Below are positions 26,585 to 30,316 of a stretch of DNA of 37,368 nt, piece after piece (position 1 is the first letter of the stretch; every line of letters starts with the position of its first letter). Source of the DNA: Methanobacteriota archaeon (lineage in GTDB: Archaea; Thermoplasmatota; Thermoplasmata; RBG-16-68-12); the NCBI GenBank assembly GCA_005878385.1, contig VBMN01000075.1:1-37368 (forward strand). Direction: 5' to 3'. The translations under genes were made by a program, and so were the position numbers. The notes beneath the pieces were generated by a model. It had not been told where the DNA came from. It was given only the letters and a program-made list of their open reading frames with translations, and ran no database searches.

Positions 26585-27148
26585 ATGCCGATGTCAACCC
26601 TCCGTCGAAGAATCCTCGTGGCGGCGAGCCTGGTCTCCTTGCTCCTTGCGACCCTCGAGATCGGGACCCCCGTCGCGGCCGCTCCCAACATCACCTACCA
26701 ATTATACGGGAACCGCAACTCCGGGTGGGGGTTCACGAACAACTCCCTGACCACTCCGGGCCCACCGATCGAAGTCGTTGTCGGGGACAACCTGACCCTG
26801 AATCTCACGTCCCTCGACGGTCGAAGCCATAACTGGTACATCGACTACAACAACAACTCGGTCGTGGACGCGAACGAGACGGGAAGCAGTTCGCCGACGT
26901 TCCGGACGGGCGCGCGGCTGTGGAACTTCACCGTGTCCAACCGCACGGGGACCTTCCCCTATCGGTCTCGGTTCAACGGCGACGGAAACATGTGGGGCAA
27001 CATTACGGTCCTGGGATCTCGGGGCGAACCCGCGCTCACCAACCTCGTGCTGATCGGTGGCGTCGCCATCGCCCTGGTCGGTGTCCTGGCGATCGCCGCG
27101 TTGGCCTATCGCAGACGGAGAGTCCCGCCGGCCCCGCCTCCCGAATGA
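26585..27148 (+). CDS. Secreted, membrane-anchored cupredoxin-like protein
   Basis: 187 residues. A signal peptide (RRRILVAASLVSLLLATLEIG) is followed by an extracellular domain rich in Asn-x-Ser/Thr sites and a C-terminal TM helix (LVLIGGVAIALVGVLAIAAL) with a basic stop-transfer RRRR. The fold resembles cupredoxins: VVVGDNLTLNLTSLDG, SHNWYID at the first His position, and a final FPYRSRFNGDGNMWGNITV. At the usual Cys-x-x-x-x-His-x-x-x-x-Met site the Cys and second His are absent, with only Met kept, so a normal type 1 copper centre is unlikely. ATG 26591 is an alternative start. The thiL gene follows after 67 bases with its own promoter. Confidence 0.75.
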   Translation: MPMSTLRRRILVAASLVSLLLATLEIGTPVAAAPNITYQLYGNRNSGWGFTNNSLTTPGPPIEVVVGDNLTLNLTSLDGRSHNWYIDYNNNSVVDANETGSSSPTFRTGARLWNFTVSNRTGTFPYRSRFNGDGNMWGNITVLGSRGEPALTNLVLIGGVAIALVGVLAIAALAYRRRRVPPAPPPE

Positions 27149-27183
27149 GCCTCCGTCCCACGGCGCGACCGCGAGCCCGGAGC

Positions 27184-27192
27184 CTTCTTACG
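27184..27192 (+). promoter_or_regulatory. TATA-like box of thiL
   Basis: CTTCTTACG is centred 28 bases before GTG 27216. It selects that GTG as the start of a leaderless message. Confidence 0.4.
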
Positions 27193-27215
27193 CCGAGGGC
27201 CCATCCACTCCGTTC

Positions 27216-28202
27216 GTGACGCGCCTCTCCGACATCGGCGAGCGCGGAGCGATCGAGATCCTCTCCCGGATCTACGACCGCGGACAGCCGGTCGGCCTCG
27301 GACAGGACTGCGGCGTCGTGGACTGGGGGGACGACTACCTGGTCGTGACGACGGACGTCGTGAATCAGAAGATGCACATCCCCGCAGGGGCGACCCCGAG
27401 CCAGATCGGATGGTATGCGACCGCCGTGAACCTGAGCGACATCGCAGCCGCCGGGGCGCGACCTCTCGGATTCGTCGCGGCGCTCTCGATGCCCGCCGAC
27501 ACCGACGTCGAGTTCCTCCGCGGCCTCGCGCAGGGAATGGAAGAGTGCGTGCGTGAGTTCGGCATCGCGGTCCTCGGGGGCGATACGAAGGAGTCGCCGC
27601 TCCTGTCGATCGCGGGGACTGCCTTCGGCCGCGTGCGGAAGGACCGGATCCTCCTGCGGACCGGCGCGAAGCCGGGAGACGCGATCGTGGTCACCGGGGA
27701 CCTCGGTCGAGCGGGGCATGCGGCGAAGGTCTTGGAGCAGCCGACCGCGCTCCGGTCGGACGCGCTGAACGACTTGCTCCGACCGTATCCGCGGATCGCG
27801 GAGGGCATGGTCCTCTCCGAGTCCGGCGCCGCCACCAGCTGCATGGACCTCTCTGATGGACTGGGCGTGAGCCTCGCGCAGCTCGCATCGATGACGCGCC
27901 TATCGTACCAGATCGAGTGGGACGCGCTCCCGCTGTACCGCGGCCTCACCGCATTGCCGCCGGCGGTCTCGAAGGAGGTCGCACTCTACTACGGAGGCGA
28001 CTACGAACTCCTGGCCACGATCCGCGCGGATGCGATCGGCGCCCTCCTGGAGCGTTGGCCCACCACGGCCCCTCGCGGGCAGCGTCTCACCGTGATCGGA
28101 AAGGTGGCCGCCTCCGGCGGGAACGTCCTGATCACGAAGACCGGGAGGGAACCTCTCCTGGGAAAGGGCTGGGAGCACTTCCGTTCTTCCGCGATTCGGT
28201 AA
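27216..28202 (+). CDS. thiL: Thiamine-monophosphate kinase
   Basis: A 328-residue member of the PurM/AIR-synthase superfamily that phosphorylates thiamine phosphate to thiamine diphosphate with ATP. The N-terminal RLSDIGERGAIEIL is characteristic. GQDCGVV takes the place of the usual G-D-D-A Mg-binding segment, followed by TTDVVNQKMHI and AVNLSDIAAAGARPLGF with the metal-binding Asp. Later signatures are VLGGDTKES, CMDLSDGLGVSLAQLA and YYGGDYELLATI. The GTG at 27216 gives the usual family length and lies 28 bases after a TATA-like box. The longer frame from 27057 runs into the preceding gene and is rejected. amrS follows after 42 bases with a separate TATA box. Confidence 0.93.
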   Translation: MTRLSDIGERGAIEILSRIYDRGQPVGLGQDCGVVDWGDDYLVVTTDVVNQKMHIPAGATPSQIGWYATAVNLSDIAAAGARPLGFVAALSMPADTDVEFLRGLAQGMEECVREFGIAVLGGDTKESPLLSIAGTAFGRVRKDRILLRTGAKPGDAIVVTGDLGRAGHAAKVLEQPTALRSDALNDLLRPYPRIAEGMVLSESGAATSCMDLSDGLGVSLAQLASMTRLSYQIEWDALPLYRGLTALPPAVSKEVALYYGGDYELLATIRADAIGALLERWPTTAPRGQRLTVIGKVAASGGNVLITKTGREPLLGKGWEHFRSSAIR

Positions 28203-28244: not shown

Positions 28245-29894
28245 ATGACGATGATCACGGAGAAGGAAGTCCTCGACGTCCGCGAGCCGCCGGGCCGGGC
28301 GATGGGCAAGGTCGCGGAGCTGTGGAAGCCCGTCGAGGGGACGAACAAGATCATGTGCACCGCGTGCGCGCGGTACTGCAAGATCGGCGAAGGTCAGGTC
28401 GGCCTCTGCGGGATCCGCGGCGTGCACGAGGGCAAGCTTTGGCTCTACGTGTATGGCCGTGTCATCACGGGCCACGTTGATCCGATTGAGAAGAAACCGG
28501 TGTCGCACTATCGGCCTGGATCGAAGATCTTCAGCATCGCGACGACCGGGTGTAACTGGCTTTGCCATCCGGCGGGAACTGCAATCCTGATGGCAGATGG
28601 GGATACTCGTGCCGTGGAGGAGGTCCGTCCAGGAGACGCCCTCTGGTCCGTAAACAAAAGGCTCGATCCGATTCTCGGTATGGTAACGGGAGCAGGCAGT
28701 CGAAAAGCCGAGACGTTCAGAGTGGCGGTGGAAGGAATTTCGAATCCGCTCCTTGCGACCGGAGATCATCCCGTCCTCTCGAATTCCGGGTGGTGTAAAG
28801 TCAAAGAGCTACGGGCCGGAGTGAAGGTCCTTGCGTCCGCTGAGATAGCCGAATTTACCACGGGCCAGGACAAGCCCCCGGTCCTCGACACCCACTCGCG
28901 GCGATTTCATTCCGGCGCCACGGCGGGATACAAACGATTAATCCATACGAGAGTCGATGTCGCGCCTCAACTCACTTGGAAAGAAGTCAAGGCCATCCGT
29001 TCCGAGGGGTCGGACGAACAAGTCTACAGCTTCGAATGTATTCAATCTCACACATATATTGCTAATGGTATCACATTACATAATTGTAGGTACTGCCAAA
29101 ATGCTGACATCTCGCAGCGACGTAAGGTGGAAGGCATCGAGGTTGAACCGCAAGACGTTGTTCGCATGACCCTCGAACAAGGCTGCCAGGGCCTCGCCTA
29201 CACCTACAATCAGCCGACGATCTTCATCGAGTTCGCCCGCGATATCGGCATGCGCGCACGTAAGGCAGGCCTCATCAACATCTTCGTTTCGAACGGTTAC
29301 GACACACCGGAGACGGTCGCGGAGATGCCGAAGTTCCTCGACTGCGTCACCGTGGACTTCAAAGGCTCCGGGGAGACGAATTTCGTCCGGAAGTACATCA
29401 ACATCCCGAACGCGGAGCCGATTTTCCAGACCCTCCTCGACACCCGCGACACGAAGAAGATCCACATCGAGATCACGGACCTGATCGTCCCGCAGGTCGG
29501 CGACGACCTCGGGGCCGCGCGGAAGCTCTCAAAGTGGGTGTACGATAATCTCGGCCCCGATACGCCGATCCACTTCCTCCGGTTCCACCCCGACTACAAG
29601 ATGATGGAGTTCCCGTGGACCCCGGTCGAGACACTGGAGAAACACTGCACGGTCGCGAAGGAGGAAGGTCTGAAATACGTCTACATCGGGAACGTGTCGG
29701 GCCATCGCCTCGAGAACACGTACTGTCCTGGGTGCAACGCGATCGCGATCAAGCGGTACGGGTTCGACATCACGGGCTGGTATCTCGACAAAGACAACAA
29801 GTGCAAGAAGTGCGGGTATAAGCTCGCGATCTTCGGTCGCCTCGAGCAGACGGCAAAGGAAAACCGCTTCTACAGCGTCCTGTACCACCGTTAG
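28245..29894 (+). CDS. amrS: AmmeMemoRadiSam-system radical SAM enzyme, interrupted by an intein
   Basis: 549 residues as encoded, 375 after removal of a 174-residue intein. The host protein is AmrS, the radical SAM member of the AmmeMemoRadiSam group, related to pyruvate formate-lyase activases. The N-terminal Cys cluster is CTACARYCKIGEG...GLCG. SHYRPGSKIFSIATTGCNWL leads into the [4Fe-4S] motif, which after splicing reads GCNWLCRYCQN (CxxxCxxC). GLAYTYNQPTIF and VTVDFKGSGE are TIM-barrel landmarks. A C-terminal zinc-ribbon-like part has CPGC and CKKC. The biological reaction is not established; AmrA (AMMECR1) and AmrB (Memo) partners are not in this window. Without splicing the first and second cluster Cys are 175 residues apart, so the precursor should be inactive. 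Confidence 0.95.
   Translation: MTMITEKEVLDVREPPGRAMGKVAELWKPVEGTNKIMCTACARYCKIGEGQVGLCGIRGVHEGKLWLYVYGRVITGHVDPIEKKPVSHYRPGSKIFSIATTGCNWLCHPAGTAILMADGDTRAVEEVRPGDALWSVNKRLDPILGMVTGAGSRKAETFRVAVEGISNPLLATGDHPVLSNSGWCKVKELRAGVKVLASAEIAEFTTGQDKPPVLDTHSRRFHSGATAGYKRLIHTRVDVAPQLTWKEVKAIRSEGSDEQVYSFECIQSHTYIANGITLHNCRYCQNADISQRRKVEGIEVEPQDVVRMTLEQGCQGLAYTYNQPTIFIEFARDIGMRARKAGLINIFVSNGYDTPETVAEMPKFLDCVTVDFKGSGETNFVRKYINIPNAEPIFQTLLDTRDTKKIHIEITDLIVPQVGDDLGAARKLSKWVYDNLGPDTPIHFLRFHPDYKMMEFPWTPVETLEKHCTVAKEEGLKYVYIGNVSGHRLENTYCPGCNAIAIKRYGFDITGWYLDKDNKCKKCGYKLAIFGRLEQTAKENRFYSVLYHR
28563..29084 (+). mobile_element. Mini-intein within amrS, no homing endonuclease
   Basis: 174 codons in frame with amrS. 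It begins with Cys1 in CHPAGTAILMADGDTRAVEE (block A), has TGDH at residues 66-69 (block B Thr-x-x-His), and ends VYSFECIQSHTYIANGI then TLHN (blocks F and G) with His163, penultimate His173 and terminal Asn174. The first extein residue is Cys. All residues needed for class 1 splicing are present; the common block F Asp is Ser156. There is no LAGLIDADG or other endonuclease domain in the middle. The last part is AT-rich (12 of 40 bases G or C at 29041-29080), unlike the GC-rich host gene, which suggests a foreign origin. Confidence 0.93.
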
Positions 29895-29953: not shown

Positions 29954-30316
29954 TTGGCCGTGGCGGTCGAAGCGCTGCGCAAATTACTACACGACTTCAA
30001 CGCCCGGACCGGCTCGAAGATGTCCGCGATCGTCTCCCGCTCCGGAGTCCCCGTCGCGTGGGTCCTGCCGGACGACGCCCAGGTCGACAACTTCGCGACG
30101 ATGGCGGCGACCTTGCTCGGCGCCCTCGAAGTGATCTATGCGACGATGAAGGCGAACCCGCCGACCCACGTGACCGTCGAATCGGAGGGTGGGATCTTGT
30201 CCGTGCGCGAGGTGACCGGAAAGATGTTTTTTGTCGCGATGGCGGAGAGGCGATCTCCGGCCCTCGTGAGGGCGATCGACGAAGTGATCGCGAAGGCGAA
30301 GGGTCTGACGAGCTAG
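29954..30316 (+). CDS. Roadblock/LC7 domain protein
   Basis: A 120-residue single roadblock domain. The first helix is VEALRKLLHDFNA, then MSAIVSRSGVPVAWVL for the paired strands with the S-x-x-G turn, a long helix (FATMAATLLGALEVIYATM), strands THVTVESEGGILSVREV and MFFVAM, and the last helix ALVRAIDEVIAKAKG. It is predicted to dimerise and to regulate a small GTPase or a motility or surface process; no GTPase is nearby. It starts at TTG 29954 with a Shine-Dalgarno GGAGGGA, and has its own TATA box after amrS. The TAG stop interlocks through CTAG with that of the convergent PAP2 gene. Its sequence is clearly diverged from the roadblock protein at 775. Confidence 0.85.
   Translation: MAVAVEALRKLLHDFNARTGSKMSAIVSRSGVPVAWVLPDDAQVDNFATMAATLLGALEVIYATMKANPPTHVTVESEGGILSVREVTGKMFFVAMAERRSPALVRAIDEVIAKAKGLTS

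Follow-up and report, generated by a model that had tools for sequence, protein, structure and literature searches.

The AmrS gene of a soil archaeon is interrupted, inside the cysteine motif of its radical SAM [4Fe-4S] cluster, by a 174-residue insert. We regard it, with a probability of roughly 93%, as a mini-intein of class 1 that removes itself from the AmrS precursor by autocatalytic splicing. In the window, by which we mean the whole analysed stretch of 37,368 nucleotides, the AmrS open reading frame occupies positions 28245-29894 of the + strand (549 aa). It lies between an AIR-synthase-related gene (27057..28202, +; PF00586/PF02769), the product of which is probably a thiamine-monophosphate kinase, and a gene for a Roadblock/LC7 domain protein (29954..30316, +). 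The frame consists of an N-extein of 106 codons ending in GCNWL (28245..28562, +), the insert (28563..29084, +) and a C-extein that opens with CRYCQN and includes the stop codon (29085..29894, +). The sequence-only reading had proposed that AmrS is broken after GCNWL by 174 codons, and this turned out to be exact to the base: codon 28560-28562 encodes the Leu that ends GCNWL, 28563-28565 is TGC (Cys1), the insert closes with CAT AAT (His-Asn) at 29079-29084, and AmrS restarts with TGT at 29085-29087. Equally, the insert begins with Cys (CHPAGT), contains TGDH and ends in LHN ahead of CRYCQN, as had been read. Its length is exactly 522 nt, and the flanks, 375 residues when joined, match the AmrS profile TIGR04337 as two separate stretches (300.4 bits; cut-off 220) in what is the single AmrS copy of this 77% complete genome.

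Joining the flanks yields GCNWL^CRYCQN and thus rebuilds the CX3CX2C motif (CNWLCRYC), in keeping with the original claim; the close relative G024 has the identical site without an insert. The N-extein contains the first cluster Cys, at -4 from the insert, and the C-extein the other two, the second as Cys+1 and the third at position +4. Because the insertion point precedes the second cluster Cys, one and the same residue serves as +1 nucleophile and as cluster ligand. With a GC content of 0.56 at third codon positions, against 0.86 and 0.84 for its two exteins, the insert has a composition of its own.

The identification as an intein draws on splicing residues, intein profiles, a predicted Hint fold and empty sites in relatives, all of which bear out the earlier proposal of a mini-intein in AmrS. 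The class 1 nucleophiles are present in the window (Cys at 1 and Cys at +1), block B reads TGDH, and block F, VYSFECIQSHTY, contains a His. T66, H69, C159, H163 and the C-terminal pair H173-N174 do not vary across 12 allelic inteins, of which all but one also have C1. The other 11 inserts are 35-66% identical to that of the window and have the same ends; since they keep both the ends and the splicing residues, an insert that is open by chance is excluded. A search with intein profiles, suggested at the outset as a check, gave 17.3-20.2 bits with TIGR01443 (intein C-terminal region), exceeding the cut-off of 15.6, and 34.4 bits (E 2.4e-8) with PF14890, the gathering score of which, 35.8, is 1.4 bits higher; on the endonuclease-bearing allele of G029, PF14890 scores 48.3, over that gathering score. 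The solved sequences closest to the insert are all inteins (Spl DnaX, Npu DnaB and Mtu RecA). AlphaFold2, run on the 12-row alignment, predicts a Hint fold for the window intein with a mean pLDDT of 90.6 and a pTM of 0.85, and the best Foldseek matches of this model in the PDB are again inteins, namely Ssp DnaB (M86, E 1.3e-8), Mtu RecA (E 2.0e-8) and Npu DnaB (TM 0.70 by query, 0.85 by target), with TM scores across the top matches of 0.64-0.70 by query and 0.76-0.85 by target. A profile search found no homing endonuclease domain in the 174 residues of the window insert, which makes it a mini-intein.

Two features of block F deserve comment. The place of its Asp, a residue that is common among inteins without being universal, is taken by Ser156 in all 12 alleles when positioned by hand against Mtu RecA; we do not regard this replacement as ruling out a class 1 intein. 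In addition, the conserved Cys of this block, together with an allele in which Cys1 has become Trp, led us to consider class 3 chemistry, which we rejected: in the same kind of hand alignment with Mtu RecA, Cys159 is off F:4, lying three residues past it, and the window copy has its Cys1.

Weak Pfam matches to PT-HINT, Hint_2 and Vint could be taken to mean that the insert is a native domain of AmrS or a non-splicing Hint domain of the hedgehog or BIL type. We give this reading practically no credence. The His-Asn pair and Cys+1 fall exactly where joining the flanks restores the motif, and the reading is already refuted by unoccupied sites within the same genus. A native AmrS domain, the alternative against which the sequence-only reading had asked to be tested, likewise fails elsewhere in the class: among the matches listed from a class-wide sample of 300 genomes, every AmrS outside two families of the order (f1 and f2) is one uninterrupted stretch of about 330 profile positions. 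No insert was seen in the weak AmrS outliers of that sample (G040, G043, G121, G154, G239, G274 and others), which seem to reflect contig ends, breaks in the frame or divergent AmrS.

That the window intein has decayed, with splicing lost and AmrS reduced to a pseudogene, is conceivable in view of the missing homing endonuclease, the replaced block F Asp and the changes seen in relatives. In the nearest of these, G016, TGG (Trp) replaces Cys1 of the intein (L002:806-1327) next to intact exteins, which can be real damage, a sequencing error or unusual chemistry. In G020 both AmrS inteins (L038:439-861 and L038:19-429) have in-frame internal deletions, which reach into the block A or block B region and leave 141 and 137 aa, reflecting either decay or an assembly fault. 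The window copy, however, has every obligatory residue, and frame and catalytic residues have been kept throughout a deeply diverged clade of ten endonuclease-free members. Moreover, between G000 (the genome of the window) and G016 the exteins differ by a dN of 0.019 and a dS of 0.691, a dN/dS of about 0.03 (intein: dN 0.215, dS 0.955). The split exteins are thus still under strong purifying selection, as would be expected if the joined product works, and we consider decay of the window copy very improbable next to a functional mini-intein.

The relatives of the window organism add a second insertion site to this picture. Our survey covered 37 genomes of its order, in which families f1 and f2 comprise 24 genomes, 22 of them with AmrS. 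Site a, the one filled in the window, precedes the second cluster Cys (GCNWL^CRYCQN), and site b precedes the third (CRY^CQN); in the window the latter would fall at 29093/29094 and is empty. Site a alone is filled in five or six of the 22 (G000, G016, G011, G013 and G029, plus G002, where a contig end cuts it), site b alone in five (G015, G017, G018, G021, G025) and neither in two (G024, G026). The remaining nine carry inteins at both sites, and in seven of these (G001, G014, G019, G020, G023, G028 and G030) both are complete, on one contig and in one frame, separated by exactly nine bases encoding CRY, so that the middle extein is three residues long. Such pairs, within CX3CX2C and with only these three codons between them, are found at L046:1296-3038, L045:1353-3095, L048:1263-2354, L031:1525-3264, L040:1582-2667 and L035:2389-3474. 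The other two doubles (G012, G027) are broken by contig ends, with the 3' end of intein a, CRY and then intein b still visible.

Records with double alleles include RBG_16_67_27, Euryarchaeota EA_2, EA_10, EA_12 and EA_27, and Thermoplasmata DBS2-1.bin2, and their origin in different data sets makes an assembly artefact unlikely. We also considered, and dismissed, the possibility that the doubles represent one long composite intein. Each boundary is set on its own by alleles with only a or only b, which argues for two inteins with a three-residue extein between them, and a single excision from one outer end to the other would take CRY with it and leave no CX3CX2C. Given that both +1 nucleophiles are cluster ligands, AmrS of these relatives would obtain its cluster only once two inteins, three residues apart, have both been spliced out, and we lean towards viewing the radical SAM motif of AmrS in this order as a two-lock site. 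With the sites so close together, their homing sites should overlap.

In the site a tree, the ten endonuclease-free members form one clade and those with a Vsr/DUF559-like endonuclease (PF18741 and PF04480), present in some relatives, another; both have 100/100 support and lie far apart. The window insert thus belongs, within a mobile intein type, to the clade without endonuclease. Distant archaea, too, have the endonuclease-bearing form at site a of their AmrS, namely Nitrososphaerales JOPF120 (L094), Maxine3 (L095) and RBG_16_50_20 (L096), and a 300-genome sample of the phylum of JOPF120 added three genomes with a 53-59% identical intein in frames of 708-751 aa, the one of these that was read (L154) being at site a of AmrS. 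A further distant archaeon, MAS3.bin69, has a site a intein (L092:3501-4079) in which the Vsr-like endonuclease is reduced to a short C-terminal piece, a stage between the endonuclease-bearing form and a mini-intein. In an even draw of 390 genomes from the window's phylum, with few members of its own order, relatives of the window intein beyond its own genome were all weak (best E 5.2e-9); viral contigs contained no close relatives, and phages and plasmids gave only single weak partial matches. At site b, long forms carry a LAGLIDADG_3 domain (PF14528) and short forms are free of endonuclease. The site b inteins tested all pass TIGR01443, two of three pass TIGR01445, and they end in Ala-Asn or Ser-Asn, not His-Asn. 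In their tree, alleles with and without intein a are interleaved (G021 stands by G019 and G023, and G018 and G025 by G020), from which it follows that intein a has been gained or lost independently of b.

The sequence-only reading knew of no described intein at this AmrS site. This stands for the open-access text, in which we found no AmrS intein and no paper combining an intein with AmmeMemoRadiSam or Rv2578c; on this open-access basis 'undescribed' is provisional. It needs qualifying in that NCBIfam already lists inteins in two radical SAM proteins, Rv2578c and Tes, so that the window copy represents a known kind of intein in a new host. The best NCBIfam match of the window intein is the mycobacterial Rv2578c entry NF038136 (36.4 bits), also with a radical SAM host. 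This match starts at position 75/76 of the profile, which falls on L^C of the window, with position 76 on Cys1; it covers the intein part only, at 36.4-37.8 bits against a cut-off of 700 bits, and the host belongs to a different radical SAM family. Judging from the profile position and the Rv2578c motif, the two insertion sites may be equivalent. In the Tes entry NF045703, the third cluster Cys is the very residue with which the C-extein resumes (CNLKCPI^CFANAN), a point placed on intact Tes genes of the window's order and corresponding to site b. Of all NCBIfam entries it is this one that the long site b inteins match best (65-81 bits), albeit with a different host; in Tes of this order we saw no intein. 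A special kinship between the site b and Tes inteins was entertained and dropped: PolB inteins of the order score at least as well with NF045703, so that a lineage of inteins specific to radical SAM proteins is unsupported.

Other archaeal genes with several inteins offer a parallel to the doubles. The haloarchaeal MCM-a/MCM-d inteins occur, like those of AmrS, as single, double and empty alleles, the double ones having been termed 'the end of the road' (PMC10643990), and CDC21 of P. abyssi and Pol of T. kodakarensis are likewise multi-intein genes, with quoted spacings of 48 and 85 residues (PMC8966425), compared with three in the AmrS doubles; in the window, site a alone is filled. The closest spacing that we found in the open-access literature was 48 residues, and none approached three, so that a middle extein this short appears to be unprecedented. 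What is surprising and new is the family with its two sites three residues apart inside a cluster motif; the copy in the window, taken alone, is an ordinary mini-intein of class 1 in a new host.

Reasoning from class 1 chemistry, we propose that Cys1 would attack the carbonyl of Leu(-1), that the N-extein would then be transferred to Cys+1, the second [4Fe-4S] ligand of AmrS, and that cyclisation of Asn174 followed by an S-to-N shift would seal the bond, restoring the CNWLCRYC cluster site. Splicing itself, and the dependence of the cluster on it, we infer. With the second cluster ligand serving as the +1 nucleophile, CX3CX2C is split in the unspliced protein, and AmrS before splicing should be incapable of binding its cluster. 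One could go further and suppose that the intein is kept as a redox gate, an overlay on the splicing explanation in which a disulfide between the N-extein cluster Cys and Cys1 would block splicing until conditions become reducing. The precedent is the intein of the radical SAM protein MoaA of Pyrococcus abyssi, which is redox-trapped through Cys-3 and Cys1 (PMC3922620, PMC10663303). AmrS resembles it in having an N-extein Cys able to pair with Cys1, at -4 in the window (CNWL^C) and at the MoaA spacing of -3 at site b of the relatives (CRY^C), and other inteins of the order also sit at Fe-S or redox cysteines, in ABCE1 (own genome and relatives) and in thioredoxin reductase (relatives). At site a, however, the spacing of -4 departs from the Cys-3 pairing of the MoaA-type trap, an intein with Cys+1 would suit any conserved Cys motif, and the patchy presence among near relatives suggests that the intein brings no fixed benefit. 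We therefore regard such a gate as unlikely, without prejudice to the mini-intein itself.

The order of the window organism is an intein-rich lineage. Its own genome, where the inteins named here are a lower bound, has one at the P-loop of elongation factor 2 (L143, G000:C70) and one at a cluster Cys of the ferredoxin-like domain of ABCE1/RLI (ISCGI^C..HN^CxxKCPF; L142, G000:C15:5000-10000), the latter also seen in L140, L141 and L144. Others in the order interrupt PolB and ribonucleotide reductase (L138, L139, L149) and, in G028 and G011, thioredoxin reductase before the second Cys of CATC (ACAT^C..HN^CDGF; L145, L146). In other families of the phylum, inteins are found in SufB and in IscU-type scaffold proteins (L118, L119, L123, L126), those of IscU lying immediately in front of a Cys in two distinct positions. 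This hints at a preference of inteins for Fe-S proteins as hosts.

Taken together, these findings add AmrS to the known intein hosts and show its radical SAM cluster motif, in which nine bases separate the two insertion sites, to be a hot spot for inteins. The double alleles, with their three-residue middle extein, offer a test of the minimal extein and of the order in which adjacent inteins splice, and small natural mini-inteins that splice between cysteines are useful as tools too. Since empty, single and double alleles coexist in near relatives, the sharing of overlapping homing sites can be studied directly in this group, and if splicing were redox-gated, it would place a control on an oxygen-sensitive enzyme.
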